Shown piece after piece: positions 621 to 18,256 of a stretch of 22,927 nucleotides of DNA (positions are counted from its first letter, which is position 1; each line of letters opens with the position of its first letter). Origin of the DNA: a virus. A program made the translations under genes and the position numbers. The notes below the pieces were generated by a model. It was not told where the DNA came from and did not search any database. It worked only from the letters and a program-made list of their open reading frames with translations. The DNA is taken from IMG/VR virus record IMGVR_UViG_3300021364_001384, positions 1 through 22,927 of that record. One strand, written 5' to 3'.

Positions 621-1058
621 ATGGCTAGAGTATATAACACTAGACGAATTGCTTCAAATAAAGTATCGTCTGGTGATCAAAATGTAAAATCCTTCACTTA
701 CAAAGGATTTAGCAGTAAAGAAAGTAAAAACGGTTACAAACTGTATGATATAGAACTTGTAAAGCAAGATCTAATCAATCATTTCTATATTCGTAAAGGT
801 GAAAAATTAGAAAATCCTAATTTCGGAACTATTATATGGGATATGATCTTTGAACAGTTCACCGAAGAAGTTAAAAATCTAATAGCAAAAGACGTTGAAG
901 AAGTAATAAACTATGATCCTCGTATTACTGTGAATGAAGTTGCGGTTGACAGCACAGAGCAAGGTATGCGTATTCAAGCAGATATCACATATTTGCCGTT
1001 TAACATCAATGAAAAGATGACTTTTGACTTTGATAGAAATAGTTCAACTATTAACTAA
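621..1058 (+). CDS. gp25: Baseplate wedge subunit gp25 (GPW/gp25 family)
   Basis: The 145-aa product is close to T4 gp25 (132 aa). It has the family pattern: an amphipathic N-terminal stretch leading to YDIELVKQDLINHF (residues 42-55), then RKGEKLENPNFGTIIWDMIFEQ in pieces (G60, P66, FGT 68-70, W73, F77), and the acidic-Pro-Arg core motif as DPRI (residues 99-102), where T4 has EPR. The C-terminus is a short beta region ending in MTFDFDR. gp25-family proteins form the inner wedge core that contacts gp6 and the sheath and starts sheath polymerisation; the same family occurs in type VI secretion and other contractile systems. The gene is flanked by the hub gene 18 bases upstream and gp6 42 bases downstream, the usual company for this family. 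The start is supported by AGGAGG at 606-611. Confidence 0.94.
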   Translation: MARVYNTRRIASNKVSSGDQNVKSFTYKGFSSKESKNGYKLYDIELVKQDLINHFYIRKGEKLENPNFGTIIWDMIFEQFTEEVKNLIAKDVEEVINYDPRITVNEVAVDSTEQGMRIQADITYLPFNINEKMTFDFDRNSSTIN

Positions 1059-1100: not shown

Positions 1101-4100
1101 ATGAGCACCACTGAAAGACAAAACAACTTAATACTTAACGAAGACTGGACTAGGATATATCAGACGTTCAAAAACGCCGATTTTAAGTCCTATGATTTCG
1201 AAAATCTTCGAAGAGTAATTATAACATATCTTAGAGAAAATTATCCTGAAGATTTCAATGATTATATTGAAAGTTCAGAATATCTTGCTCTTATCGATGC
1301 TATTGCTTTTCTAGGCCAAAGTTTATCGTTTAGAATTGATCTTGCTTCAAGAGAAAACTTTATTGAACTAGCAGAACGTAAAGAAAGTGTATTACGTATT
1401 GCACGTATGCTTTCTTACAATGCAAAGCGTAATATTCCTGCTAAAGGGTTGTTAAAATTTACAAGTGTTACAACAACAGAAAATATTGTTGACAGTAACG
1501 GAAGAAATCTAGCACAACAGAATATTCGCTGGAATGATCCAACAAACTCAAATTGGGCAGAACAATTTATTCTTGTATTGAATGCTGCTATGACAAATAA
1601 CGTCGAGTTTGGTAGAAGCCAAGGCAGTGCAAGTATTCAAAGTATTCCTACAGAGCAATATAGATTTAACACTTACTCAACAGATGTTCCTATCTACAGT
1701 TTTTCTAAATCTGTTGCAGGAAGAAGTATGGTGTTTGAGTTATTGAGTACTACATTTAAAAACTCTGAAGAAATTTACGAAGAAGCACCATTTCCTGGAA
1801 ACCAAATGGGATTCGTTTATAGACAGGACGGGCAAGGACCAGCAAGTCCTAATACAGGATTCTACTTTATGTTCAAGCAAGGTTCTTTAGAACTTGCAGA
1901 CTTCACAATTGATGTTCCTACAACAAACGAAAGAGTAAATGTTGAAAGTCAAAATATTAACAATGATGATGTTTGGTTATACCAATTAAACAGCGTAGGT
2001 GCTCAACTACAAGAGTGGACTAAGGTTTCTAGTTTAGTAGGAAACAATATTGCTTATAATAGTGTTTCAGCAAATTTAAGAAATATCTATAGTGTTGCAA
2101 CCAAAGAAAATGATAGAATAGACCTAGTGTTTGCTGACGGTGTCTATGGTAACTTGCCACAAGGGCCATTTAGAGCCTACTATAGAGTTTCAAATGGTTT
2201 GAGTTATAGTATATCTCCAAATGAAATGAAAGGTATTACTATTTCTATTCCGTATATCAACAAGCAAGGCGCACAACATACACTAACTATTGGTCTTGCA
2301 TTACAATATACTGTAAACAGTGCAGCATCTTCAGAAACTTTAGATAGCATTAGAGCAAATGCTCCTGCACAATATTATACACAGAACAGAATGATTACAG
2401 GCGAAGATTATAATCTTGCGCCGTTAACTGCTTCACAGAATATTTTAAAAGTAAAATCAGTAAACAGAACGTCAAGTGGTATTAGTAGAAATTTTGATAT
2501 TATAGATGCAAGTGGAAAATATAGTTCAGTAAATGTATTTGCTGATGACGGATATATCTATAAAGAAGAAGGCGAAAGATATCTTTCATTTAAATTTGAG
2601 AATAGAACAGACATTATTAATTTTATTAAAAATAATGTTGAAAAAGTTTTTACTGACACAGACGTTTACAATTATTATCTTACAAAGTTTGATAAAATTT
2701 TATTCTCTGAACAAAATATTATTTGGACAAGTGTAACCAATGATGTAAATGTAGGTACTGGTTATTTTACTAATACAGTAGATTTAAGTCTACTTAAAGT
2801 AGGAACCTATGCAACTAATAACCTAAAATATCTTGTACCAGGTGCAACAATTAAATTTACACCGCCAGAAGGCCAAGCATTCAAAGACGGAAAACTGGTT
2901 ACTGCTGACAGTACTGATCCTAAGCAGAGAAGTTATATTTGGACAAAGGTAGTCGGTGTTGCAGGCGACGGTACAAATGCAGGCAGAGGAGCTCTTACAT
3001 CAGGATTGGGTCCAGTAACATTTAATGATAATATTCCTAATGGTGCAATTGCAAATAGAATTGTTCCTAAATTTGTATCAGATATTTCAGATAGTATTGA
3101 ATCGCAGATTGTAAACCAGTGTTTTGCTAATTTAAATTTTGGATTGCGTTATGACTTTACAAACGCTAGTTGGAAAATTATTCAAAGCCAAAATGTCAAT
3201 CTAACAAGTTCTTTTAGTTTAGGTAAGTCAGGCGATGTTTCAAGTGAAAATTTAGATGCATCTTGGATTGTTGCTTTTGTAAAAGAAAATGATGAGTACA
3301 TTGTTAGAATTAGAAAACTAGATTATGTATTTGGTAGTATTAAACAGAATAGATTCTATTTCGACAAAAATGAAAAAGCATACAATAACCTAACAGGTAA
3401 ACTAGAAAAAGATACAGTTAAGGTTTTAGGAATCAATACTGATTCTAACGGTATTAATCCTTTAATAAATGATTTTGATTTTGAGATAAGCGATACAATT
3501 CAGTTTGACGATGGTTATGAAAGTACGAACGAAATTAAATTAGCATTTAGCGATGCTGATAGTGATGGAGTAGTAGACAATCCAGAGTCGTTTGAAAATA
3601 TTGTAGGTGAAGATTTAGATTTAAATTATCTATTTTTTGTAGAAGAAACAGATCAATACGGAACAGCGATTTACAATCTTATTCAAGACAGTGATAATAT
3701 ATTGGTATTTCAGAAAGAAAGTCTGGTAAATGTAAACGATTATGAAGACGGTCAATTATTTTATTTTTATGATACTAATGAAAATAGAATAAAGCGTTTA
3801 GACAAAACAACAAACACACTTAGACTAGAAAGTGCATATAAAGCAGTAATAGGAAGAAAAGGTCTTAAGTTCCAATATACTCACGCAGCCAGTGAAGATA
3901 GAAGACTAGATCCTAGTGTAACAAATATTATAGATATCTTTATACTAACAAGAGCATATGATACAACATTTAGAAATGCACTTGCAGCAGGAATTGATTT
4001 ACCAGAAATTCCTAGTAGCGAAGATTTAAGAATTAGTTTTGGTTCTGGATTAAACTCTATCAAAGCAATTAGTGATGAAATAATTTATCATCCTGTACAA

Positions 4101-4496
4101 TATAAAGTATTGTTTGGTAGTAATGCAGATGTAAAACTACAAGCAAAATTTAAAGTTGTTAAAAATCCTCAACTTGCAATTAACGATAATAATTTAAAAG
4201 TAAGAATAGTAAATGCAATTAATACATTTTTTGATATTAACAATTGGGATTTTGGCGATAGATTTTATCTAAGCGAATTAACTACATTTGTAGTAAATTC
4301 TGTTTCACCAGAAATAACAAACTTTACAATTTTACCAAGACAAGAGACACAGGTTTTTGGTAGCCTTTTTGAAATACAAAGTAAGCCAGATGAAATTTTT
4401 GTAAGTGGTGCTACTGTCGATGATATTGAAATAGTTTCGTCTATTACCGCTGCTGAAATCAGAGCTGGTGCAGGTTCAGTAGTGAGTAGTACATAA
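1101..4496 (+). CDS. gp6: Baseplate wedge subunit gp6 (Baseplate_J-like), enlarged
   Basis: The 1131-aa protein has a T4 gp6-like N-terminus: NEDWTRIYQTFKNADFKSYD (residues 14-33), then the helical stretch with LIDAIAFLGQSLSFRIDLASR and ARMLSYNAKRNIPAKG. Baseplate_J signatures follow: FADGVYGNLPQGPF (about 344) and NAPAQYYTQNRMITGEDYN (about 419), the typical aP..y....r.iT.eDy pattern. The C-terminal quarter has NAINTFFDINNWDFGDRFYLSEL, a standard gp6/Baseplate_J ending. gp6 dimers form the continuous ring of the baseplate that holds wedges together and relays the trigger to the sheath. T4 gp6 is 660 aa, so about 450 residues are extra, mostly between residues 440 and 960. This insert contains a canonical EF-hand-type loop, DADSDGVVDNPE (818-829). 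TAGGAA at 1088-1093 serves as the ribosome site. The stop overlaps the next start (TAATG), indicating coupled translation. Confidence 0.93.
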   Translation: MSTTERQNNLILNEDWTRIYQTFKNADFKSYDFENLRRVIITYLRENYPEDFNDYIESSEYLALIDAIAFLGQSLSFRIDLASRENFIELAERKESVLRIARMLSYNAKRNIPAKGLLKFTSVTTTENIVDSNGRNLAQQNIRWNDPTNSNWAEQFILVLNAAMTNNVEFGRSQGSASIQSIPTEQYRFNTYSTDVPIYSFSKSVAGRSMVFELLSTTFKNSEEIYEEAPFPGNQMGFVYRQDGQGPASPNTGFYFMFKQGSLELADFTIDVPTTNERVNVESQNINNDDVWLYQLNSVGAQLQEWTKVSSLVGNNIAYNSVSANLRNIYSVATKENDRIDLVFADGVYGNLPQGPFRAYYRVSNGLSYSISPNEMKGITISIPYINKQGAQHTLTIGLALQYTVNSAASSETLDSIRANAPAQYYTQNRMITGEDYNLAPLTASQNILKVKSVNRTSSGISRNFDIIDASGKYSSVNVFADDGYIYKEEGERYLSFKFENRTDIINFIKNNVEKVFTDTDVYNYYLTKFDKILFSEQNIIWTSVTNDVNVGTGYFTNTVDLSLLKVGTYATNNLKYLVPGATIKFTPPEGQAFKDGKLVTADSTDPKQRSYIWTKVVGVAGDGTNAGRGALTSGLGPVTFNDNIPNGAIANRIVPKFVSDISDSIESQIVNQCFANLNFGLRYDFTNASWKIIQSQNVNLTSSFSLGKSGDVSSENLDASWIVAFVKENDEYIVRIRKLDYVFGSIKQNRFYFDKNEKAYNNLTGKLEKDTVKVLGINTDSNGINPLINDFDFEISDTIQFDDGYESTNEIKLAFSDADSDGVVDNPESFENIVGEDLDLNYLFFVEETDQYGTAIYNLIQDSDNILVFQKESLVNVNDYEDGQLFYFYDTNENRIKRLDKTTNTLRLESAYKAVIGRKGLKFQYTHAASEDRRLDPSVTNIIDIFILTRAYDTTFRNALAAGIDLPEIPSSEDLRISFGSGLNSIKAISDEIIYHPVQYKVLFGSNADVKLQAKFKVVKNPQLAINDNNLKVRIVNAINTFFDINNWDFGDRFYLSELTTFVVNSVSPEITNFTILPRQETQVFGSLFEIQSKPDEIFVSGATVDDIEIVSSITAAEIRAGAGSVVSST

Positions 4497-7400
4497 TGGC
4501 AGATAAGAAAAACTTTCCAAGTAGCGGATTACCTATTAGAAGAAACAGTGACTTTCTTCCAGAAATTTTCCGTACGGATGCAAACAAAAAATTCTTTGCT
4601 GGAGTTTTTGATCCGTTAACACAGCCTGGAGTTGTAGATAAAATTGTAGGCTATTTAGGTAGACGATATGGAAAGACGTATAACAATAATGATACCTATT
4701 TAGATTCAGATGAAACATTAAGAAGTAGATATCAGTTAGAACCTGGTGTTGTTGTTGAAAAAGATCAGAAAATAGAAAAATTTTATGATTATCTAGATCA
4801 AAAAAACATTATTAAGTTTTTTGGTAATGATATTGATAGAGATGATAAAATCTTTTCACAAGAACATTACACTTGGAATCCACCTATTGATTGGGATAAG
4901 TTTTCAAACTATAGAGAATATTTTTGGGTACCATCAGGTCCTCCTAGTGTTACTGTTCAAGGACAAGCAGCCTCTATTACAAGTACATACAAAGTAAGAA
5001 CCGCTGTTGGCAGTTCTTGGATTTTTACTCCTGACGGAGCAACTAATAATCCTAACATTATTTTATATAGAGGACAAACTTACAATTTTGATCTAAACAA
5101 TACAGAAGGTTTTGTAATTAGAACAAATTATGATACAGGCTCGTTAAATTATGATCCTGATAGAACATATTTTCCAGGTGAACTTGCAGTATTCGATGGC
5201 AACCTCTGGAAAGCGAAAGTAGAAGTAAGCCCAGCAGACGGAAGTACAATTACAGAAGAAAGCCAAGACTGGGAACTTATTGACAGCAGTACATCTAATG
5301 TAGCACTACTGTATAATAAAGGTATAACAAATAACGGAACAAAGAAAGGAACTTTAACGTTCGAAGTTCCAATGGATGCTCCTGACTTACTTTATTATCA
5401 ATCAGATGTAGACCCTAACAGAGTAGGACAATTTGTAATTGCAGATATTGATACCAATACATTTTTAGATGTAGAGAAAGATGTTATTGGTAAAAAAACT
5501 TATACAAGTTCAAACAATATAGAATTTACAAATGGACTTGTAGTTGAATTTACAGGAACCACCCTTCCTGAAAAATATCAAGAAGGTACCTGGCTAGTTG
5601 AAGGTGTAGGAAAAGAAATCACACTTACACAATTTAGTGATCTTGTTCCACCGCAGGTAACAATAGACACACCAGAGATATTATTTGATAATGAAGGATT
5701 TGATACGCAACCTTTTGATGATGCAAGTCAGTATCCTGGTGCAAAAGACTATATTACAATTGCGAGAAACAGTAAAGATTCTAATCCCTGGTCTAGATAC
5801 AATCGTTGGTTTCATAGAAGTGTATTAGAATTTGCCTATAATCAAAGAAATTCTAGTTTTGAAGCAACAGAACAAACTAGAGCAAAAAGACCTATTATAG
5901 AATTTCATCCTAATATACAGTTGTACAATCACGGTACAATTGCAAAACAAACTGTAGATTATGTCGATACATTTACTACAGACGTTTTTTCAAATATTGA
6001 AGGAAGTTTAGGTTATAACGTAGATGGCGAATTCTTATTTGAAGGTGCTAGAGTACTTGTAATTGCAGATACTGATGGTTTAGCAAATAATAAAATATAC
6101 GAAGTTAAATTTATAAATCACAACGGTAGAAGACAGATTACATTAGTACAAACTGAAGATTCAGAAAGTTTACTTAACGAGTGTGTTCTAGTAAGACGTG
6201 GTAGAGATAATGCAGGTATTATGTATCATTACAACGGTACAAACTGGGTACCTAGTCAGCCTAAAACGTCAGTTAACCAATCACCTATGTTTGAAATGTT
6301 TGACAAAAACAATAATGCTTTTTCAGACGAGACGACATATCCTGTAAGTACATTTTTTGGAACAAAAATTATAAGTTATACACAAGGCAATGGTCGAATT
6401 GATTCTGAATTAGGGTTTGCACTATCCTATCTTAATATTGATAATGTAGGCGATATACAATTTGATTGGAACCTAGATAAAGATTCATTTACATATGCAG
6501 AAGGTCAAGATACTGTTGTAAAAAATATTAATACCGGATATTTGAAAATTGATGGAAATTTTGATAATGGGTGGACAGCACTAGCCACAGATTATCAAAT
6601 GCCTATGATAGACACATATGTACTAGACGAAGAATCAAATGAAGTTATATTAAACACAGTTGATTGGGGGAAACTTTCTGGTGATGAGAAAATTATATTC
6701 TACACTAACGGTGTAAGAGAAAACGCAAATTATACAAGAACCGGAAATGTATTTGCATTTGAAAAAACATTTGCAAAAAGAGATTCAGTATCAGTAAAAA
6801 TTATTTGTGATTTAGATCCTATTGACGGATACTATGAGATGCCAATAGGCCTAGAGAAAAATCCATTAAACACACCTAATAAAAAATTTACTCTTGGACA
6901 AGCAACTGATCATATTTTAACAAGTTTAGAATTCAGCGATGAATTTAAAGGCACATTACCAGGTGTAAGCAATCTAAGAGATTTAAGTAGTTTTCAACAA
7001 CACGCAAAACGTTTTATAAAGCATAGCGGTATTGCACCTGCGTCTGTTGCACTATTAAATGACAAAAATATTAACATAATTAAATCTTTACAATACGCAA
7101 AAACTGCATACAGTGTTTTTAAAAATAACTTTTTATTAAAAAGTACTGAAGTTGAATTCAATGAAAATATTCCTGATTTTGTAGACGGTATACTAGAAAG
7201 ACTAAACAAAACAAAAAGTATCGACAGCCCATTTGCGGATAGTGATATGGTTGGTACTGGTGCATACAATTCGCTAGATTATACTGTAGAAGATACAGGA
7301 ATTAAGACCTTTGCCTTAAGTGAAAACTTTAATTTAGAAAGTCTAAGCAGACGTGCTGTTTATGTTTATATAAACAATGTACAGTTATTGAATGGCGCCG

Positions 7401-10400
7401 AGTATACCTTTGACAGTAATTTTGGATTTGTTACAATTTCTAAAACACTGGTACAAGGTGATGTAATACAGATTAGAGAATATATTTCAACTAGTTTCTG
7501 TCATATACCTCCTACACCTACAGCATTAGGATTGTATAAAAAGTATACTCCATCTAAATTTATCGATGACACATATAGAGAACCTCAAGAAGTAATTCAA
7601 GGACACGATGGCAGTATTACAATTGCCTATGGAGATTATAGAGATGATCTTATACTTGAATTAGAATATAGAATTTATAATAACATTAAGAACGAATACA
7701 ATAATAAAGTTTTTGATATTGATGCAATTCTAGGCGGGTATTATGGTAACAGTGAATATAATGTAAAAGAAATTTCTGATATTGTAAATCAAGAATTTTT
7801 AAAATGGGTATCAAATACAAATCTAGGTTATGTGCAAAATTCTTATTTTGTAGAAACTGAACCGTTTACATATACCTATAATCAAATGGCTGATCCTACA
7901 GGATCTGAAAACTTACCTGGTTATTGGAGAGGAGTATATAGATACTTCTATGATACAGATAGACCTCATAGATGTCCTTGGGAATGTTTAGGGTTTTCTG
8001 AAAAGCCAACTTGGTGGGAAGAAGAATATGGTCCGGCACCTTATACAAACGGTAACTTAATTCTTTGGGACGATATTAAAGATGGAATTATTAGACACGG
8101 TCCAAGACAAGGAATACACCCCAGATATGCTAGAACAAGCATTACTAAACACTTGCCCGTTGATGCAGACGGTAATTTAGTTGATCCACTTACAAGTGGT
8201 CTTGCAACTAATTTTACATTACAGAATAATAAAGGAAGTTTTCAATTAGGCGATGTAGGCCCTGTCGAATATGCTTGGAAATCTAGCAGTGAATATCCTT
8301 TTGCAATTTGTTCTGCACTTTGTTTAATTAAACCGTTTGATTTTATAATTGAAAATTTTGATAAAAACAAAACAATAAGAAACGCAGTTGATCAAATTGT
8401 AAGTAAAACTACAGACGTCTTTATTACAATTGACGATTTAAAATTACCAGTTGCAGGCAGTGACGAATTACAAAGTGGTTTAGGATTTTATGTAAGTGCA
8501 TATGTAAAATCAAAAGGACAATCAGTACAAGATGCTCAAGACATATTGTCAAATCTAAATGTTAAACTTACATCAAGACTAAGCGGGTTTGTTGATAAAG
8601 ACCAACAAAGATTTTTAACTGACAGTAAAAATCCTAATTCAACAAGCAGTAGTACTTTTATTCCACCTGAAAATTTTGATATTATTTTCAGTGTTGGTAG
8701 CCCAATTGCTAGTCTATCATACAGTGGTGTAATATTAGAAAAAAGTGATAGAGGTTGGATTGTAAATGGTTATAACGATCTCGAACCATACTTTAGATAT
8801 TTTAGTGCAATACCTAACCAAAAAGACCCTACAATAAGTGTAGGAGGTATCAGTGAAACATTTACAGTATGGGAAGAAAATCAAACCTATAATAATGGAT
8901 CTATAGTAGAATATAGAAATGATTATTGGAGAACCAACCAAACACATACAAGTACAACCGAGTTTGATAAAAATCTTTGGAGAAAGTTGCCGGCACTTCC
9001 ATTAGTAAACGCAACTACGGCCCAAAGAAGAAGAAACTTTAATAACACTGTTGTTAGAAAATTAAGTTATGGTGAACAATTAACATCAATCCAAGATGTT
9101 GTAGATTTCTTATTAGGATATCAAGAATATCTAAAATTCCAAGGCTTTGTTTTTGAAAATTATGATCCTAGAAATCAAGTAGTACAAGATTGGATTACAA
9201 GTGCGAAAGAATTTATGTTTTGGAGTAAACATAACTGGGCAGTAGGAAGTTTAATTACACTAAGTCCAGGTGCAGAACGTTTAGAGATAAATGTTCCAGT
9301 TGGCGTTGCAGATAATATTCTTGATAGTTTTTATGACTATAATGTGCTAACAGATAAAGGAACCACAATTGATACAAAAAATATTGATGTATCTCGTGAC
9401 TTCCAAAAATTTGTAATTAATACTACAAATACTACAGAAGGAATTTACTATCTAAAAGTAAATTATGTTCTTAAAGAACACGTTGCTGTTTTTGATGATA
9501 GAACAGTCTTTAATGATGTAATATTTGATAAGCCAACAGGATATAGACAGGAAAGAATAAAATGTCAAGGTTTCCGTACTGTTGATTGGGACGGCGATTA
9601 CACTTCACCTGGTTTCTTGTTTGACAATGTAAAAATTAATGTTTGGCAGCCTTTTAGAAATTATCGATTAGGTGACATTGTTGCATACAGATCAAAAAAT
9701 TATACAAGCAAATATAATCACACAAGTGGTGAAAATTTTGATAATAGAGATTGGACTGTATTAGATAGCACACCTAGTAAACAACTTATACCTAACTACG
9801 ATTATCGTATTAATCAAATAGAAGACTATTTTGATGTTGATACTGATGGACTAGGCAAAAGTCAACGTGACCTTGCAAGGCATACAATAGGTTATCAAAC
9901 TAGACAGTATTTAGAAGCACTTGCAGAAGATCCTACAACACAGTATAAGATCTATCAAGGTTATATCAGAGAAAAAGGATCAAGTAACAGTATCTCTAAA
10001 TTGTTTGATAAAATCAACGGTAGTGGTGAACCTAGTGTTTCTCTAGACGAAGAGTGGGCATTTAGAGTTGGTAAACTTGGCGGCATCGATCAGTCTTATA
10101 ATATAGAATTAAAACTACAAACAGATCAGTTTGTTATAAATCCTCAACCTTTATTACTTACTGATGAAGAAAGAATTAATCCTGACAGATATTATAGAAT
10201 AGGAAAAAGCGGATTTGATTATGCGCCAGTTCCTTTTAGTTATGATGTCAATCCAGTATCATATGAAGCAGTACCAACAAGAACTGCTGGTTATGTAAAA
10301 ATTGGCCAGACACAGTATAATGTAAAAACTAGAAACGATTTATCTAATTTAGATATCGACAGTTTACAAAATAATGACCATATATGGATTACATTTGACG

Positions 10401-13400
10401 GACCAAGTTGGTCAGTCATTCGTGCAAACTTTGCATACGATCTACCTATAATTGGTGTGGAGATAGAACAAAACAAAGTTACATTACAATTTGCACGTAG
10501 ACACAACAAGGCAGTTGATGATTTTGTAGGAGTTAAAGGCATTGATGACATCAGTGGTATACATAAAATCACCGAAGTCAGTAACTTTACAGTTTCTTAT
10601 TTGTTAGAAAAAAATGCATCTCCTGATGTATTTGAACCTAGTACATTAAAGTATCCTGCATTCTTTACAGAAGCAAGATTTAAAAACTATGATGAACTAT
10701 CACCAGAACACGTTGCTCTACTAGAAAATGGTAGTAAAATGTATATTGATGATAACGGTGATAATAAATGGGAAGTTATTGAAAAAAATAAATCTTATAC
10801 TGATAAGAAAATTGAAAACTTTGGATTATCGGATCCAGACAGAGCAGGCGAAAAAGTTGTCTACAGTGATGTATTGAAACAAACACTAGTAGGAATCCCT
10901 CACAGTGGTTATGTTATATCATATGTAGAAACACCGACTGGTCTTGATTTAAAACAAATTGTTGAACCATTATCAGAATTCCGTGATGAAGTACTAGGAA
11001 GTTTTGGAAAAGAAATTGCAATTAGTCCTGATAGCAGATGGCTAGCAGTAGGATCTCCTTTAGCAAGTGGAATCAAATCAAATTACAAAGGAGCATTTAA
11101 TCCGGCAGGTTTTTATGTTACAGGCGACATTGTTTTATATAATGGAAAATTATATAAAGCAACTAGAAATATCCAAGGCGACGGAAGTACAATTAATGTA
11201 TATACAGAAGATTGGGAATACGTAAGAAACATAGAAGCACTTACATCAGGTTCTTCAGATGGACAAACTCAGCAAGGAATGATTTCTATATATGAGTTTT
11301 CGGCAAATCAATGGAACTTACGTTTTAACTTTATCAGTCCTCGTCCGGCTGACTTTGAATATTTCGGAAGTAAAATTACACTTGCAGTCAATGGTAACAA
11401 ATACCATATGGCAGTTAGTGCTACAGGATCTAGGGATGGTAAAGGTAGAGTATATCTTTACACCTATGACAACGAACAATGGACTTTAGATGAAAATCCT
11501 AATTATCAAGGTGTATATGATAATGATGCATCTAAGTTTTATCCTAAAGGATCTACAGTATGGTATGAAGGTTATCTATGGCAGGCACTAGAAGATAATT
11601 ACGGCGACGGTAGTACACTTAATATTGATAGTGTTGATTGGTTACGACTTGATGCTGTAACTACAGAAAATAGTTTACCTCAATCTGTTAGTATTGATGT
11701 AGCAGACGATAACAGTACACTATTTGCAGGCCTGCTATCACCTAATCAGGTTGCAGAACTTATTATGGAAGGTGATCAATTTGGTAGTTCACTTGCTATG
11801 AGCTATGACGGAAGTGTATTAGTTGTTGGTGCTCCTAATAGTGATAAACAATTTTTTGCAAACTACAGAGGAATTTGGAGACCTGACTTTGAATATAAAT
11901 CAGGAGATGTAGTAAAATATCAAAACAGTTATCATCAACTAGAAAATATTGGACCTAGTGCTGTAGATGATGGTAGTACAATTAGAAGTTATAACGAAGA
12001 ACCTGATAGAGGTTATCCGTGGGTCAACGTAGGCGATAGTAGTTCTGAAGCAACAGGTAGAGTGTTTATCTATAGACGAGACGAAGACTATGGATATAAA
12101 TTAGTACAGGCAATTGCTGCGGATGGATTAGCAGATATTAGTGATCTAGATGTAAATGAACAAATTAATTCAGGAGATCAGTTTGGTAAAAGTATTGCTA
12201 TAGATTATAGCGGTAACACAATTGTTGTAACAAGTCCTAAAGCAGATATTAACTTTCAGAATCAAGGTAGTGCATATGTATTTAGATATGACAGTGACAG
12301 CACAGGAACACAAGATTATAGACTGAAACAAAAATTACAAAGTTACGATAAGTTTCCAAATGAATTTTTTGGACAAGATGTTTGTATTTCGCCAAACACT
12401 GAAATTGTAGCCATTGGTGCAAGTAATAGTCCTTTTGTATTACCAACAATATTTGATAATTCTGGAACAGAATTTGATCAAAACAGGACTACATTTAAAT
12501 CCTACAGCGGTTTTGCTGGTAGTGTTTATGTGTTTGAATTAAAAAATAATACATATTATCTATCAGAAAAACTAGAAAGCGAACTTTCTTTAAATGAAAG
12601 TTTCGGACATAGTATCAGTTGTACAAAAGATACAATTGCAGTAGGATCACCAAACTATGTAGCACCTGCACCACACGGAGTACAAATTGCATTCGAAGGT
12701 GATCAAACTGGTATGGCAAGACTGTTTAAGAAAGATCCAGATGTCAAACCATTTGCTGTTTTAAATTCTCAACCAGCAACGGTTGATATAGAACAAGTAA
12801 AAAGAATTAGTCTGTACGACAACAATTCAGATGATAAAATTCAAGATCTAGAAATAATAGATCCTGCTAAGTTGAAAATACTTGCGGCTGCTGAAAGAGA
12901 ACTAAGTTATAAAACACCTTTTGACCCTGCAGTATACAGTGTAGGTAATCCAGATGAACAAATTGTAGATGATCAAATTTCTTGGACAACAAAGAATGTA
13001 GGTAAGTTATGGTGGAATATTGGCAATGCTAAATGGATTGACTACGAGCAAGGAGATATTGCATATAGATCTACTAACTGGGGAAGACTTGCTGAAGGAG
13101 CAAGTATTGATATTTACGAATGGGTAGAATCAAAGTTATTACCAAGCGAGTGGTCAGCAATTGCTGATACTAACGAAGGTTTACAAGTAGGTGTTAGCGG
13201 ACAGCCATTGTATCCAGATAATACTGTTTATTCTCAGAAAAAATTATACAACACAAACACCGGCGAAGAAACCGAAACTAGATATTACTATTGGGTTAGA
13301 AATAAATTAATCAAACCTAAAGATATTGTAGGCAGAAATATTAGTGCAAGTACTGTCGCAAGTCTAATTCGTGATCCGTTCTCTGTAGGTAATACATTTA

Positions 13401-16400
13401 TTGCACTTGCAGACAGTAATAAATTTATTTTATACAATTATACTTCTATAGTTTCAAACGATTATGCAGTATTAAACATAGAATACTATAATAGTAAAGA
13501 ACGTAAAAATGCAGTTCATAGAGAATATCAACTGTTAACAGAAGGTGTTGCAGATAGTCTACCTGCTGACAAATTAGAACAAAAATGGATTGACAGTTTA
13601 ATAGGTTATGACAAGCAAGGTAATAGAGTACCTGATACTGATTTACCTGATAAGCAAAAATACGGTGTTATGTTTAGACCAAGACAAAGTATGTTTGTGA
13701 ATAATCGTAAGATATTAGAAACAACTATCAAAAAGATTAATTCTATACTTTTAAAAGAAGCATTTGCAGATACTATCAGTTATGCTAACTTAAATCTTAC
13801 AGACACACAGCCTGCAGAAATTTTAAATTTATATGATACTAAAGTTACAGGTATTGATGATTTAGAAAATGTAGGTACTATACGAGTTAAAAAAGCAGAA
13901 CTATCTGCGAATATAATTGACGGTGAAGTTGTAAGTATAGATGTTATAGATCCTGGCTATGGTTATAGAGTTGCGCCAACAATTGATTTTGAAGGCGACG
14001 GTGTAGGTGTACAGGCACAAACGGTTATTGATAATCAAGGTAGATTGTCACAGGTAAATGTAATAGCACGTGGTAGAAGATATAATAATCTAATAGCAAA
14101 AGTTAGAAACTTTAGTGTGCTTGTAGAATCAGACAGCACAGCAAATAACTACTGGTCAATCTATGCCTGGGACGATATAAGAAAAACATTCTTTAGAAGT
14201 GCATCACAAGCATTTGATACAACACGTTATTGGTCAAAAATTGATTGGTGGGCAGAAGGTTATAGTTCAAATAGTAGAATTGTAAAAGAAATTTTAAGTG
14301 TATACGAAGAACCAACTACAAATTTACTTGTAGGTGATTTATTACGTATCAAAGAATACGGCACAGGCGGCTGGGCAGTATTTGAAAAACTAGATGCTAC
14401 AGGTAATACTCTATTAGAAAATTACAAACTTGTAGGCAGACAAAATGGCACACTTGAATTAAGCGATAGATTATACAATACCGATACAAGCGGAATAGGT
14501 TATGATATTGTAGATAGTTTTGATGCAGGTGTATATGACAAAGAAGTTTCAAATGAATTAAGAAATATATTTAAAGCAGTTAAAGAAGACATTCTGACTA
14601 ACCAATATGCTGTAGAATGGAATAACTTATTCTTTATCAGTGTTAGATACGCATTACAAGAACAAACTTATGTAGACTGGGCATTTAAAACAAGTTTCTT
14701 AAATGCTGCTTACAAAGTAGGAAAACTAGAACAAAAATTAAACTATAAGAATGATAGCCTTGATAGTTATCTAGAATATATTAATGAAGTTAAACCGTTT
14801 AGAACAACTATTAGAGAATATAAATCTATATACGATAATATTGATAACGCAAATACCGCAATAAGTGATTATGACTTGCCGCCATATTTCAATGAGGCAC
14901 AGGGCGAAATTATTCCGGTTACTGAAACAGATGATGTTTTACAAAATTATCCTTATAGATTCTATACTGACAACGCAGGTTATGAAATTACATCAATAGA
15001 TGTTTCTAATGCAGGTAGTGGTTACACCAGTATTCCTAGAGTTGTTATTCAAGGAAATGGAACTGGTGCAAAAGCAACAGCATTTATTTCTAATGGTAAA
15101 CTAAGCGGAGTAAGAGTTGATAATCCAGGTAAAGGTTATACAAAAACGCCAACAGTTTCTATAGTAGGTGGTAATGGCGATAATGCCGATACTGCAAAAG
15201 TAGTTGCTATTCTTGGTAATACTAAAATCAGAACACTCGATGTCAAGATGAAACTTGATAGAATTACCAAAGATGGTGTGTATAATGATTTTAATTTTAG
15301 TCAATCATTTACTGCGTCAGGCAGCAGTTCTGTTTTTGAATTAAGTTATCCTTGCGCAATAGAAAAATCTAAAATAGAAATTATCAAAGACGGACAACTA
15401 GTTCTTAATAATGAATATACAGTTAGCCTATATAGACAAAATATTGATAACTTTAATCAATTAAAAGCAAAAATTACATTTGTTGAAGCACCAGCAGCAG
15501 GTAGTGTTATCGATATTACATATGAGAAGAATGTAGAGTTACTTGATAGTGTAAACAGAATTCGTAAACATTATCAGCCTACCGCAGGTATGAAAGGTAC
15601 AGATCTTGATCAACTTATGACAGGTATTGATTACGGAGGTGTACAAGTTCAAGGAACAACTTTTGACGTTACAGGCGGCTGGGACGCACTTCCTTGGTTT
15701 ACAGATAGTTGGGATAGTGTAGAAGCAGCAGCAGACTATTATATTGTTTGTGACGGAAGTACACAGGCAGTTACATTACCTTATATTCCAGGTGATGGAC
15801 AAGAATTAAACATCTATCTAAAACGTGCAGGTTCTGGTGCACCAAGATCAGTTGATGAATTACAGTATTCTGAACAAGTTGATGAACCTAAAGCAGTTCG
15901 TATAGATGATCCTAATTACACAGACGCCTGGGACAGCAGTATTGCAACTAATCCTGCTGCACAGATGCCAACGTTTGTAGGAGACGGAAGTACTCAATCA
16001 GTAGAAATTGGACAGTACATTCAAACGAATCCTGGAGATATTTTAATATTTAGACCTATATCTTCAGATGGTAGTGTTACTATTAATGATCCTAATCTTG
16101 TTGACACTAAAATATCTGGCGGAAGTTTAGAAACACTAGATAAAGCGTATAGTACAGCACAAGGTAACACACCTGAAGAAATTGCAATCATCGGTGGTAG
16201 TTTTATATCTCCCGAAAATGTACCAGCACCGGAAGAAAATATTCCTGGACAGGTTTTAGATAGTTTAAGTATTAAAGTATATCAAACAACAGGTAGCGGT
16301 GCAGCACCTTTACAAAGTAAAGTACAAAACGGTGATGGCACAACTACTAGATTCTCAATAGGACAAAATATCTTAGAATCTAATTCGGTTTTAGTTTATG

Positions 16401-18256
16401 TGGATGGAATTAGACTTGACGCAGATCAATATCTAGTAGATCTTGCTGATAATGTTGTTGAATTAGATATAGCACCCGAACTTGGAAAACTAGTTGAGAT
16501 TCTAAGTATTGGTATTGGTGGTGTAAGTTTATTGGATTATCAAGAATTTACAGCAGACGGAGAAACAAACCTATTTTTAACTAATGCACCGTTCGAACTT
16601 ACAGCAAACACATTTGTTTCTGTAAACGGTGTTCGTGAAGATGTTGGTTTTGTAAACAGCACAGGTATTGCAGACACACCGGATAGAACACTTGTACAGT
16701 TTGGTATTACACCAGACAGAAATAGTGTTATTAAGATAGTGTGTCTAGGAGCAAGTTCAGATGTTGACAGCACTAACCTTGCAATTGTAAGGGTTAACAA
16801 ACAGGAATTAGTGTATGACGGAAGCACAAGATCATTTGATTTAGATAATTTTGTTCAACTTACAAGGGAAAGTCCTGTTTCTTCAATGGTTGTTACCATT
16901 AACGGTAATAAATTAAAAGGAGTTGATACAACTTATGCTGTGTATGACGGAACAAATAATTCATTTACACTAGGTATTGATCCTTTTGAAGCATCGGGTG
17001 CTATTCTAACAGATAATATTTCTGTATTTGTAAATGAAGAAAGAAAAACATTTATTCAAGATTATGTTTATAATGGTACAACAAAATTACTTGAAATTGA
17101 CAGCACAAAATTAAGTGTTGGTGATGTTATTAAAATTGAAAATGATTTTAGATCACAATATACTGTGTTAGAAAATAATCTTGTGATAGATAGTGCAGTC
17201 ACTTTAACAACAGGTGACACGATCGATGTAACTTGGTTTGGTGAATATCCAAGTATGGCTGTTGTAAGCGATAGATTCACTGGAGGTAAATCGGTATTTG
17301 AACTTCCATTCAAACCATTAAGTGTAAGTTATGTTTGGGTTTATAAAAACGGTGAAAGATTAAAACAAGATTTTGATTATGTTGTTGATCTTCCTAGAGG
17401 CGTTTTAAGAGTGTTAACAGGAACAGTGCCTGCAGATGAAATTTCAATCACTATGTTTGGTGCACAAATATTTAAATTGCCAAGAGCATATGAAATTAAT
17501 AAAGATATGTTGAACGTATATAGATATACACGTTTTGCTGCTAATGATGATATTAGATTAGCAAAAGATTTAAATTATTTTGATACTGAGATCGAAGTTA
17601 CAAACGGACATCTATTAGCAGAACCAATTACAGAACGTAATATTGCAGGTGTTGTAGTTATTAACAGCGAAAGAATACAGTATTTAGAAAAAGACGGCAA
17701 TATATTAAGAAAATTACGCAGAGGTGCGTTAGGAACTGCTGTAAAAGAACTGCACAATAAAGACGATATAGTAGTAGATGCAGGCGCTCCTGAAAATATT
17801 CCATACAATGATACTCAAGATAGAACAGATTTTGTGAGTGATGGAAGCAGCCAACTAATTGGACCGCTTGATTTTGTTCCAATTCAAGCAGCAGATGCAA
17901 ATTGGTACAGTGAAACTATACCAAGCGACTATGGTAGATGTGATACTATTGAAGTGTTTGCTGGCGGAAAGCGTATGAGAAAGAATTCATTAACAGTTTT
18001 TGATGAATCACTAGGTGCAAATAGCCCTAGTGCAGATAAACAAGTTGAAGCAGAGTTTGCTGTAGACGGTTCAAGTCCATATATAAGACTAACTAAACCA
18101 CTACCTGCTGGAACTAGAATTAGTATACTAAGGAAATTGGGTCAAACTTGGTACGATAGAGGCACTACAACCGCTACTAGCGGCATTACATTGCTGGATA
18201 ATAATACTGCAATTAGTAAGTTCATTGCTGCTAAGAGTACGAGATTACCTGAATAA
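4496..18256 (+). CDS. Giant virion structural protein (4586 aa), baseplate/tail-associated, likely adhesin
   Basis: This one open frame of 13.8 kb begins at the TAATG overlap with gp6. No convincing SD is visible, so translation is probably coupled to gp6. The N-terminus (residues 1-150; FFAGVFDPLTQPG, YLGRRYGKTY, W.PPIDWDKFSNYREYFWVP) and several blocks resemble the very large structural proteins encoded beside gp6 in marine T4-like phages, from memory. These blocks are the Trp/Pro-rich stretch at 1143-1199; LARHTIGYQTRQYLEAL; EEWAFRVGKLGG near 1850; WIDYEQGDIAYR; and YEWVESKLLPSEW. Order after that: CBM5/12-like modules at about 219, 1456, 1714, 2196, 2337 and 2456; an FG-GAP-like propeller at 2118-2760; GxGY repeats near 3147 and 3498; tandem beta modules from about 3600; and a conserved C-terminal block, VVVINSERIQYLE (about 4386). 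It has no signal peptide or membrane segment. By position it replaces T4 gp7-gp11, suggesting a wedge-attached, sugar-binding, host-contact protein. Structural role is likely; the exact function is inferred. Confidence 0.9.
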   Translation: MADKKNFPSSGLPIRRNSDFLPEIFRTDANKKFFAGVFDPLTQPGVVDKIVGYLGRRYGKTYNNNDTYLDSDETLRSRYQLEPGVVVEKDQKIEKFYDYLDQKNIIKFFGNDIDRDDKIFSQEHYTWNPPIDWDKFSNYREYFWVPSGPPSVTVQGQAASITSTYKVRTAVGSSWIFTPDGATNNPNIILYRGQTYNFDLNNTEGFVIRTNYDTGSLNYDPDRTYFPGELAVFDGNLWKAKVEVSPADGSTITEESQDWELIDSSTSNVALLYNKGITNNGTKKGTLTFEVPMDAPDLLYYQSDVDPNRVGQFVIADIDTNTFLDVEKDVIGKKTYTSSNNIEFTNGLVVEFTGTTLPEKYQEGTWLVEGVGKEITLTQFSDLVPPQVTIDTPEILFDNEGFDTQPFDDASQYPGAKDYITIARNSKDSNPWSRYNRWFHRSVLEFAYNQRNSSFEATEQTRAKRPIIEFHPNIQLYNHGTIAKQTVDYVDTFTTDVFSNIEGSLGYNVDGEFLFEGARVLVIADTDGLANNKIYEVKFINHNGRRQITLVQTEDSESLLNECVLVRRGRDNAGIMYHYNGTNWVPSQPKTSVNQSPMFEMFDKNNNAFSDETTYPVSTFFGTKIISYTQGNGRIDSELGFALSYLNIDNVGDIQFDWNLDKDSFTYAEGQDTVVKNINTGYLKIDGNFDNGWTALATDYQMPMIDTYVLDEESNEVILNTVDWGKLSGDEKIIFYTNGVRENANYTRTGNVFAFEKTFAKRDSVSVKIICDLDPIDGYYEMPIGLEKNPLNTPNKKFTLGQATDHILTSLEFSDEFKGTLPGVSNLRDLSSFQQHAKRFIKHSGIAPASVALLNDKNINIIKSLQYAKTAYSVFKNNFLLKSTEVEFNENIPDFVDGILERLNKTKSIDSPFADSDMVGTGAYNSLDYTVEDTGIKTFALSENFNLESLSRRAVYVYINNVQLLNGAEYTFDSNFGFVTISKTLVQGDVIQIREYISTSFCHIPPTPTALGLYKKYTPSKFIDDTYREPQEVIQGHDGSITIAYGDYRDDLILELEYRIYNNIKNEYNNKVFDIDAILGGYYGNSEYNVKEISDIVNQEFLKWVSNTNLGYVQNSYFVETEPFTYTYNQMADPTGSENLPGYWRGVYRYFYDTDRPHRCPWECLGFSEKPTWWEEEYGPAPYTNGNLILWDDIKDGIIRHGPRQGIHPRYARTSITKHLPVDADGNLVDPLTSGLATNFTLQNNKGSFQLGDVGPVEYAWKSSSEYPFAICSALCLIKPFDFIIENFDKNKTIRNAVDQIVSKTTDVFITIDDLKLPVAGSDELQSGLGFYVSAYVKSKGQSVQDAQDILSNLNVKLTSRLSGFVDKDQQRFLTDSKNPNSTSSSTFIPPENFDIIFSVGSPIASLSYSGVILEKSDRGWIVNGYNDLEPYFRYFSAIPNQKDPTISVGGISETFTVWEENQTYNNGSIVEYRNDYWRTNQTHTSTTEFDKNLWRKLPALPLVNATTAQRRRNFNNTVVRKLSYGEQLTSIQDVVDFLLGYQEYLKFQGFVFENYDPRNQVVQDWITSAKEFMFWSKHNWAVGSLITLSPGAERLEINVPVGVADNILDSFYDYNVLTDKGTTIDTKNIDVSRDFQKFVINTTNTTEGIYYLKVNYVLKEHVAVFDDRTVFNDVIFDKPTGYRQERIKCQGFRTVDWDGDYTSPGFLFDNVKINVWQPFRNYRLGDIVAYRSKNYTSKYNHTSGENFDNRDWTVLDSTPSKQLIPNYDYRINQIEDYFDVDTDGLGKSQRDLARHTIGYQTRQYLEALAEDPTTQYKIYQGYIREKGSSNSISKLFDKINGSGEPSVSLDEEWAFRVGKLGGIDQSYNIELKLQTDQFVINPQPLLLTDEERINPDRYYRIGKSGFDYAPVPFSYDVNPVSYEAVPTRTAGYVKIGQTQYNVKTRNDLSNLDIDSLQNNDHIWITFDGPSWSVIRANFAYDLPIIGVEIEQNKVTLQFARRHNKAVDDFVGVKGIDDISGIHKITEVSNFTVSYLLEKNASPDVFEPSTLKYPAFFTEARFKNYDELSPEHVALLENGSKMYIDDNGDNKWEVIEKNKSYTDKKIENFGLSDPDRAGEKVVYSDVLKQTLVGIPHSGYVISYVETPTGLDLKQIVEPLSEFRDEVLGSFGKEIAISPDSRWLAVGSPLASGIKSNYKGAFNPAGFYVTGDIVLYNGKLYKATRNIQGDGSTINVYTEDWEYVRNIEALTSGSSDGQTQQGMISIYEFSANQWNLRFNFISPRPADFEYFGSKITLAVNGNKYHMAVSATGSRDGKGRVYLYTYDNEQWTLDENPNYQGVYDNDASKFYPKGSTVWYEGYLWQALEDNYGDGSTLNIDSVDWLRLDAVTTENSLPQSVSIDVADDNSTLFAGLLSPNQVAELIMEGDQFGSSLAMSYDGSVLVVGAPNSDKQFFANYRGIWRPDFEYKSGDVVKYQNSYHQLENIGPSAVDDGSTIRSYNEEPDRGYPWVNVGDSSSEATGRVFIYRRDEDYGYKLVQAIAADGLADISDLDVNEQINSGDQFGKSIAIDYSGNTIVVTSPKADINFQNQGSAYVFRYDSDSTGTQDYRLKQKLQSYDKFPNEFFGQDVCISPNTEIVAIGASNSPFVLPTIFDNSGTEFDQNRTTFKSYSGFAGSVYVFELKNNTYYLSEKLESELSLNESFGHSISCTKDTIAVGSPNYVAPAPHGVQIAFEGDQTGMARLFKKDPDVKPFAVLNSQPATVDIEQVKRISLYDNNSDDKIQDLEIIDPAKLKILAAAERELSYKTPFDPAVYSVGNPDEQIVDDQISWTTKNVGKLWWNIGNAKWIDYEQGDIAYRSTNWGRLAEGASIDIYEWVESKLLPSEWSAIADTNEGLQVGVSGQPLYPDNTVYSQKKLYNTNTGEETETRYYYWVRNKLIKPKDIVGRNISASTVASLIRDPFSVGNTFIALADSNKFILYNYTSIVSNDYAVLNIEYYNSKERKNAVHREYQLLTEGVADSLPADKLEQKWIDSLIGYDKQGNRVPDTDLPDKQKYGVMFRPRQSMFVNNRKILETTIKKINSILLKEAFADTISYANLNLTDTQPAEILNLYDTKVTGIDDLENVGTIRVKKAELSANIIDGEVVSIDVIDPGYGYRVAPTIDFEGDGVGVQAQTVIDNQGRLSQVNVIARGRRYNNLIAKVRNFSVLVESDSTANNYWSIYAWDDIRKTFFRSASQAFDTTRYWSKIDWWAEGYSSNSRIVKEILSVYEEPTTNLLVGDLLRIKEYGTGGWAVFEKLDATGNTLLENYKLVGRQNGTLELSDRLYNTDTSGIGYDIVDSFDAGVYDKEVSNELRNIFKAVKEDILTNQYAVEWNNLFFISVRYALQEQTYVDWAFKTSFLNAAYKVGKLEQKLNYKNDSLDSYLEYINEVKPFRTTIREYKSIYDNIDNANTAISDYDLPPYFNEAQGEIIPVTETDDVLQNYPYRFYTDNAGYEITSIDVSNAGSGYTSIPRVVIQGNGTGAKATAFISNGKLSGVRVDNPGKGYTKTPTVSIVGGNGDNADTAKVVAILGNTKIRTLDVKMKLDRITKDGVYNDFNFSQSFTASGSSSVFELSYPCAIEKSKIEIIKDGQLVLNNEYTVSLYRQNIDNFNQLKAKITFVEAPAAGSVIDITYEKNVELLDSVNRIRKHYQPTAGMKGTDLDQLMTGIDYGGVQVQGTTFDVTGGWDALPWFTDSWDSVEAAADYYIVCDGSTQAVTLPYIPGDGQELNIYLKRAGSGAPRSVDELQYSEQVDEPKAVRIDDPNYTDAWDSSIATNPAAQMPTFVGDGSTQSVEIGQYIQTNPGDILIFRPISSDGSVTINDPNLVDTKISGGSLETLDKAYSTAQGNTPEEIAIIGGSFISPENVPAPEENIPGQVLDSLSIKVYQTTGSGAAPLQSKVQNGDGTTTRFSIGQNILESNSVLVYVDGIRLDADQYLVDLADNVVELDIAPELGKLVEILSIGIGGVSLLDYQEFTADGETNLFLTNAPFELTANTFVSVNGVREDVGFVNSTGIADTPDRTLVQFGITPDRNSVIKIVCLGASSDVDSTNLAIVRVNKQELVYDGSTRSFDLDNFVQLTRESPVSSMVVTINGNKLKGVDTTYAVYDGTNNSFTLGIDPFEASGAILTDNISVFVNEERKTFIQDYVYNGTTKLLEIDSTKLSVGDVIKIENDFRSQYTVLENNLVIDSAVTLTTGDTIDVTWFGEYPSMAVVSDRFTGGKSVFELPFKPLSVSYVWVYKNGERLKQDFDYVVDLPRGVLRVLTGTVPADEISITMFGAQIFKLPRAYEINKDMLNVYRYTRFAANDDIRLAKDLNYFDTEIEVTNGHLLAEPITERNIAGVVVINSERIQYLEKDGNILRKLRRGALGTAVKELHNKDDIVVDAGAPENIPYNDTQDRTDFVSDGSSQLIGPLDFVPIQAADANWYSETIPSDYGRCDTIEVFAGGKRMRKNSLTVFDESLGANSPSADKQVEAEFAVDGSSPYIRLTKPLPAGTRISILRKLGQTWYDRGTTTATSGITLLDNNTAISKFIAAKSTRLPE
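5150..5284 (+). repeat. CBM5/12-like module A of the giant protein
   Basis: Residues 219-263 follow the pattern Y..dr.Y.pGe.a.fdg.lWkAk......DGST......DWELID. This is the short aromatic three-strand pattern of chitin-binding-type (CBM5/12) modules: early Tyr, Gly before a hydrophobic strand, Trp/Tyr-x-A, and a final Asp-Trp. It shares ADGST...DW with modules D, E and F. Confidence 0.55.
7922..8092 (+). other. Trp/Pro-rich conserved block of the giant protein
   Basis: Residues 1143-1199 are unusually aromatic: YWRGVYRYFYDTDRPHRCPW, then LGFSEKPTWWEEEYG and PYTNGNLILWDDI. It contains two of the protein's few cysteines (in HRCPWEC). I recall close versions in giant proteins of marine myoviruses; the density of Trp, Pro and Tyr suggests a tightly packed, strongly conserved core. 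No enzymatic motif is recognised. Confidence 0.5.
8861..8992 (+). repeat. CBM5/12-like module B of the giant protein
   Basis: Residues 1456-1499 read F.vWeenqtYnnGSiVeYrndYWrTnqtHtSttEFDknLWRKLP. This is the classic W...Y..G..V.y...yW.......s...f....W pattern of short carbohydrate-binding or fibre modules. It lacks the GDGST loop of modules A and D-F and resembles module C instead. Confidence 0.6.
9635..9769 (+). repeat. CBM5/12-like module C of the giant protein
   Basis: Residues 1714-1758 contain VWQPFRNYRLGDIVAYRSKN, then YTSKYNHTSGENFDNRDW. The W..f.nYrlGDIVaYr..nY pattern and closing Asp-Trp match module B closely in spacing. Confidence 0.6.
11081..11230 (+). repeat. CBM5/12-like module D inserted in the propeller
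   Basis: Residues 2196-2245: NYKGAFNPAGFYVTGDIVLY, then NGKLYKATRN, QGDGST and EDWEYV. It lies between the VGSP strand and the GMISIYEF strand of one propeller blade and shares GDGST...DW with A and E. Confidence 0.62.
11504..11656 (+). repeat. CBM5/12-like module E inserted in the propeller
   Basis: Residues 2337-2387: YQGVYDNDASKFYPKGSTVW, then YEGYLWQALED, GDGST and VDWLRL. It sits after the outer strand of the second FG blade (GRVYLYTYDNEQWTL) and before the next FG strand at 2429. Confidence 0.62.
11861..12036 (+). repeat. CBM5/12-like module F inserted in the propeller
   Basis: Residues 2456-2514 begin NYRGIWRPDFEYKSGDVVKY, followed by QNSYHQLEN, DDGST and a longer loop before PWVNV. 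It is inserted between VVGAP and GRVFIYRR of the third FG blade, at the same blade position as module D, and starts with the same NY(R/K)G. Confidence 0.6.
13931..14092 (+). repeat. GxGY-type beta repeat, copy 1, in the giant protein
   Basis: From about residue 3146: VSIDVIDPGYGYRVAPTIDF, then EGDGVGVQAQTVID and GRLSQVNVIARGRRY. The pattern V..pG.GY...P.i.f.g.G.ga.a...v..G.l..v.v...G..Y is repeated more perfectly at 14987-15175. It is a beta-rich structural repeat with no known catalytic role. Confidence 0.55.
14987..15175 (+). repeat. GxGY-type beta repeat, copies 2 and 3, in the giant protein
   Basis: From residue 3498 two half-repeats follow each other: ITSIDVSNAGSGYTSIPRVV with GNGTGAKATAFISNGKLSG, then VRVDNPGKGYTKTPTVSIVG. 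Both have the sequence V..aG.GYt..P.V.i. This is the clearest instance of the motif in the protein. Confidence 0.62.
15302..18150 (+). repeat. Tandem beta-sandwich-like modules, C-terminal part of the giant protein
   Basis: About ten units share a common plan: a strand F.(a/g)dGst..F.l, a loop, then a V.vnG.rl..g.dY.v strand pair, and a closing gd.I.i strand. Recognisable starts include FTASGSSSVFEL (about 15308), DGSTQAVTLP (about 15750), DGSTQSVEIG (about 15983), GDGTTTRFSIG (about 16331), FTADGETNLFLT (about 16547), DGSTRSFDLD (about 16817), YNGTTKLLEI (about 17069), FTGGKSVFELPF (about 17276) and DGSSQLIGPL (about 17838). A non-repeat insert with VVINSERIQYLE and LRRGALGTA lies at about 17649-17790. 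Such modules usually form extended rods or fibre shafts. Confidence 0.6.

Follow-up and report, generated by a model that had tools for sequence, protein, structure and literature searches.

A seven-bladed FG-GAP/integrin-type propeller carrying CBM5/12-like modules in a giant baseplate-region protein of a virus

Residues ~2118-2758 of a 4586-amino acid protein encoded by a 22,927-base virus record (the window, which here means this whole stretch of DNA) are confirmed as a seven-bladed FG-GAP/integrin-type propeller, and sequence comparison with relatives shows this propeller to be a domain cassette within a giant baseplate-region protein. The record derives from an uncultured bacterial virus that is probably very large. 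The giant open reading frame (4496..18256, plus strand) matches the virion structural protein family PHROG 10938 with E = 0 and is of baseplate type. Its start coincides with the stop of the gene directly upstream, which encodes a gp6-like baseplate wedge protein (1101..4496, plus strand; PHROG 10646 and 219, baseplate wedge subunit), and a gp25-like baseplate wedge protein (621..1058, plus strand; Pfam GPW_gp25, E = 7.7e-10) is located before this. The giant frame is followed by genes for a small conserved protein, for a tail-collar fibre protein (18933-21080) and, from 21095, for a second protein of fibre-like type.

The fold assignment is based on profile and structure comparisons. FG-GAP_2 (PF14312) matches the slice in four stretches with E = 2.7e-24 and 85.5 bits against a cutoff of 23, and it alone matches, there being no match to PF01839 (FG-GAP) on the window record. 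The AF2 model of residues 2060-2800, calculated with an alignment of 25 relatives, has a pLDDT of 79 and a pTM of 0.77 with lower confidence in the region of modules E and F, and its 28 blade strands are arranged in seven groups of four. A Foldseek comparison of this model with the PDB ranks integrin α headpieces first (E = 3e-12 to 1e-9) with TM values of up to 0.62 normalized on the ~443-amino acid α5 propeller. Superposition is over the full length of integrin α propellers of ~440-455 amino acids (TM 0.59-0.62), and from this superposition onto closed propellers the ring is predicted to close. Among viral predicted structures the matches are giant-virus and phage FG-GAP proteins with E values down to 6e-24. 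A second AF2 model, of the relative L070, has a pTM of 0.81 and matches integrins with E = 6e-14.

The leading blade is divergent, with AG at residues 2117-2118 in place of FG, and Gly-2118 is invariant in 26 sequences. In the relative L073, with a backbone only 37% identical to that of the window, seven FG-type blades follow one another with no inserted modules and the first blade has FG, and the divergent first blade of the window is therefore not the sole basis for counting seven. The earlier note had placed a divergent leading blade and six Phe-Gly blades (residues 2170, 2290, 2429, 2563, 2625 and 2703) at 10847-12774 (residues 2118-2759). These FG positions are exact, the coordinates fit the domain closely, and the seven blades and the integrin type are borne out by both models, Foldseek and the two relatives L070 and L073. 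Neither separate sandwiches nor an open ring (closure again judged by superposition) nor fewer than five blades, any of which that note would have counted against itself, was found. The FG dipeptides are on their own weak evidence for blades, with seven observed compared with 2.7 expected in shuffles (p = 0.016) and an extra FG at residue 2109 outside the blade strands, and the profile and structure evidence is strong. This modest excess over chance would suit tandem β-sandwiches or chance FG dipeptides in place of a propeller, a reading made very improbable by the Pfam E value, AF2, Foldseek and the independent blade sets of two relatives. Integrin-type calcium sites were also considered and are ruled out, as the DxDxDG-type motif of integrins is absent from 28 of 28 sequences.

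The inserted cassette, comprising the whole propeller and its modules, extends over residues ~2099-2756 (10790..12763, plus strand), and is absent in PA5oct, as judged from a continuous joined-flank HMM match described below. All of its elements are on the plus strand, and blades 2-7 in the AF2 model each open on one of the six FG dipeptides. The divergent blade 1 (residues 2118-2156, 10847..10963; AF2 strands 62-97) is followed by blade 2 (residues 2170-2280, 11003..11335), which has module D in its 2-3 loop (residues 2188-2260, 11057..11275), and by blade 3 (residues 2290-2331, 11363..11488). Module E and its linker (residues 2332-2428, 11489..11779) form the 4-1 loop between blades 3 and 4, and module F is placed in the 2-3 loop (residues 2447-2521, 11834..12058; AF2) of blade 4 (residues 2429-2541, 11780..12118). 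The ring is completed by blade 5 (residues 2563-2614, 12182..12337), blade 6 (residues 2625-2693, 12368..12574), which has a 33-residue 2-3 loop, and blade 7 (residues 2703-2758, 12602..12769). The long loops are all of the 2-3 or 4-1 kind (73 residues for D, 100 for E and 75 for F, with others of 33, 25 and 20), and the 1-2 and 3-4 loops amount to 57 residues in total. In any propeller the 2-3 and 4-1 loops lie on one common face. Because modules D, E and F all sit in these loops, they project from one face by topology, and the AF2 placement agrees with the earlier proposal that they project from loops.

The three modules are CBM5/12-like. The Pfam profile CBM_5_12 (PF02839) matches the slice with 32.6 bits compared with a cutoff of 26.2 in two stretches, the modules not all being reported singly; D is assigned from Pfam on the slice together with AF2, E from Pfam and F by sequence. 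Positions 274-326 of profile A2, in module E, match All3316 (PDB code 7b5h, a cyanobacterial contractile injection system) with E = 2.8e-4, and the module F stretch has a weak phmmer match to the same protein. Further CBM5/12-like modules are present in the window backbone at residues 1459-1488 and around residue 1713, and such a backbone module is also found by Pfam in the PA5oct, SCTP-2 and Phosso homologues.

The regions on either side of the cassette are conserved backbone. The left flank (residues 1709-2098, 9620..10789, plus strand) is matched by HMM in six of six isolate homologues, L073 and L080, and the right flank (residues 2757-2900, 12764..13195, plus strand) is matched with E values of 1e-63 to 2e-32 across the window, L073, L080 and the same six of six isolates. 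In PA5oct the joined-flank HMM matches continuously (hmm 13-122, E = 1.3e-23) with 7 extra residues at the junction, compared with an insert of ~658 residues in the window. As the joined flanks match with only these 7 residues between them, PA5oct has an empty site. The propeller is present in all 60 environmental-lineage open reading frames that have both flanks (59 by BLAST and L080 by Pfam), 44 of which, by subtraction, were retrieved via the backbone and not via the propeller. None of the six isolate homologues has a BLAST match to the propeller, tblastn with the window, L073 and L080 as queries gave no propeller relatives in phage isolates, and Pfam reports no FG-GAP match in the giant proteins of PA5oct, GAP32, SCTP-2, Vibrio 2.275.O and Phosso.

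Among the relatives the blades persist and the modules come and go. L070 retains the blades without modules E and F (residues 2342-2422 being missing for E), L001-type loci have 51 additional residues beside module E, L057 and L061 have ~380 extra residues in the 1-2 loop of blade 3, and L080 keeps the FG-GAP blades with inserts different from those of the window. Close to the cassette site in Atu_ph07 and Phosso, glycine-rich GYT-type repeats can be seen by eye. A LamG/jellyroll-like lectin stretch was likewise noted by eye near the site in SCTP-2 (L024; residues ~2110-2350 of the giant protein), is not reported by Pfam, and is placed by the joined-flank match a little upstream of the junction itself.

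Outside the cassette, long stretches of the protein have homologous counterparts in giant structural proteins from jumbo phages that infect Agrobacterium, Sinorhizobium, Pseudomonas, Salicola, Vibrio and enterobacteria. Isolate homologues include PA5oct gp355 (3857 amino acids, with an ESI-MS/MS note in its record), GAP32_230, Atu_ph07 AUZ94962, Phosso 294 and SCTP-2 gp140, and in most records examined the homologue follows gp25/gp6 or baseplate-wedge genes. These proteins share the backbone and, in most, the gene order with the window, but the propeller was not found in them. In contigs L030, L042, L063 and L075 the giant gene is in two or three frames, reflecting either an assembly frameshift or a real split. 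Following gp25- and gp6-like genes, the giant protein occupies the position of gp7 in T4, where the order is 6-7-8. Despite this matching position, membership of T4 gp7 was dropped on the hhalign result, in which six regions of the giant protein compared with a gp7 profile gave probabilities <1% throughout and no detected homology, the profile being a shallow one of 4 sequences that distant homology could escape. T4 gp7 itself (L081:5061-8159) has one sialidase Asp-box-like stretch, SNDKGQTW, at about residue 215, from which it may contain a propeller of its own; Pfam gives no BNR match in T4 gp7.

In comparisons between clades few parts of the locus diverge more than the propeller, which has an identity of 49-52% in the L002-type group compared with 64-66% for the backbone and 68-70% for gp6. 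Within the close group it evolves no faster than its flanks, and the modules are conserved to the same degree as the blade strands (0.51-0.56 compared with 0.57), a combination atypical of a surface in contact with a receptor. These comparisons bear on the proposal of the earlier note that the propeller is the primary host-recognition head, its own upper face being the main receptor-binding or triggering surface. The integrin-like fold and the between-clade divergence above that of neighbouring regions would be in keeping with such a role, as would the propellers of two phage baseplates: the receptor-binding protein (Gp45) of Staphylococcus phage phi11 has a five-bladed β-propeller in the host-recognition device, and gp131C of phiKZ, at the periphery of the baseplate, is a propeller of seven blades suspected to be a receptor-binding domain (PMC4901313). 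We consider this role unlikely and less supported than an accessory display platform, given the lack of excess change in the close group, the equal conservation of modules and strands, the missing calcium sites, the empty site of PA5oct, and the separate collar-fibre and second fibre-like genes that follow, the distal parts of whose products have no match in many other clades. The remark in that note that a disc of this kind does not usually belong to a T4 baseplate requires qualification for phage baseplates generally in view of phiKZ and phi11.

At about even odds in our judgement, the propeller is an accessory platform displaying putative glycan-binding modules. Display is favoured by the one-face arrangement, the CBM-like modules and their turnover, the optional cassette and the lower between-clade identity, and the accessory nature by the empty site in PA5oct. 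The propeller would then be a rigid platform on the outer baseplate with its module-bearing face pointing away from the scaffold, presenting to glycans on the host surface several modules that each bind carbohydrate weakly, and so adding avidity beside the dedicated tail fibres. Were it present once per wedge, as T4 gp7 is, a virion would bear six platforms and ~eighteen modules. Against display, the protein has CBM5/12-like modules in other places as well, and isolates with no propeller have them too, so that they may be structural fillers, and the conservation of modules at the level of strands and the unaccelerated change in the close group weigh the same way. The main rival, which we regard as possible on a tentative footing, is a structural hub or spacer in which propeller and modules dock proteins and anchor fibres or neighbouring wedges with no host contact. 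It would account for those same observations, including the CBM-like modules in relatives, and for the resemblance of module E to All3316 of 7b5h. However, the empty PA5oct site indicates that baseplate assembly does not as a rule require the cassette, and relatives lose or exchange modules but retain the blades. The other suggestion of the earlier note, a rigid hub for the inserted modules, fits this persistence of blades under module turnover.

Like the integrin α propeller, its best Foldseek match, the window domain has seven four-stranded blades with FG blade starts. It differs in an identity of ~12%, in the missing DxDxDG loops, in CBM5/12-like modules replacing the I domain and in being embedded in a phage protein. 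The integrin αI domain is inserted between blades in the same kind of loop as the modules here, a likeness of placement that is best described as structural analogy and carries no claim of descent. The phiKZ protein gp131C (PDB code 4GBF) is likewise a seven-bladed propeller in the baseplate of a large myophage, but there it is the C-terminal domain of another protein, and it is not among the best 50 Foldseek matches, which are of integrin type or other cellular propellers. The phi11 protein differs in having five blades and in being a homotrimeric receptor-binding protein. Stand-alone viral FG-GAP proteins (the Atu_ph07 'Hemagglutinin' A0A2L0UZX4, cyanophage S-TIM5 H6WG31 and giant-virus proteins) share the predicted fold but are separate from the giant baseplate protein. 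The Atu_ph07 'Hemagglutinin', a Foldseek match of the propeller, has 393 amino acids, and FG-GAP_2 repeats are also present in a separate 409-amino acid frame of the Atu_ph07 genome (MF403008.1, L021, ~243,045-243,311). Phosso (PV764938.1, L088) has giant open reading frames of 3182 and 3702 amino acids with dozens of FG-GAP_2 repeats (~48,386-56,545 and ~60,543-68,852, minus strand) and two smaller ones of 429 and 398 amino acids near 92-94 kb, and from these it seems to encode several multi-propeller proteins.

Phage baseplate propellers and FG-GAP in viral annotations are thus known. The combination of an FG-GAP propeller cassette in a giant gp6-adjacent protein with CBM-like modules on one face turned up neither among isolates nor in the literature searched, in which no paper brought together FG-GAP, bacteriophage and tail protein (subscription journals lying mostly outside its scope). 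A broader and tentative reading is that the scaffold in the gp7 position is a modular docking port for whole surface-binding folds, with the propeller as a second-level frame in a two-tier exchangeable adhesion system. The port would hold the propeller in the aquatic lineage, have other repeats or lectin-like domains nearby elsewhere, and be empty in PA5oct.

The series of a bare (L073), a partly loaded (L070) and a fully loaded propeller (the window) and a missing one (PA5oct) makes the platform role testable. The FG-GAP propeller is the core of integrin adhesion in animals, and the present finding extends it into phage baseplates. If the proposed platform role is right, surface recognition in very large phages would be part of the baseplate scaffold as well as of the fibres.
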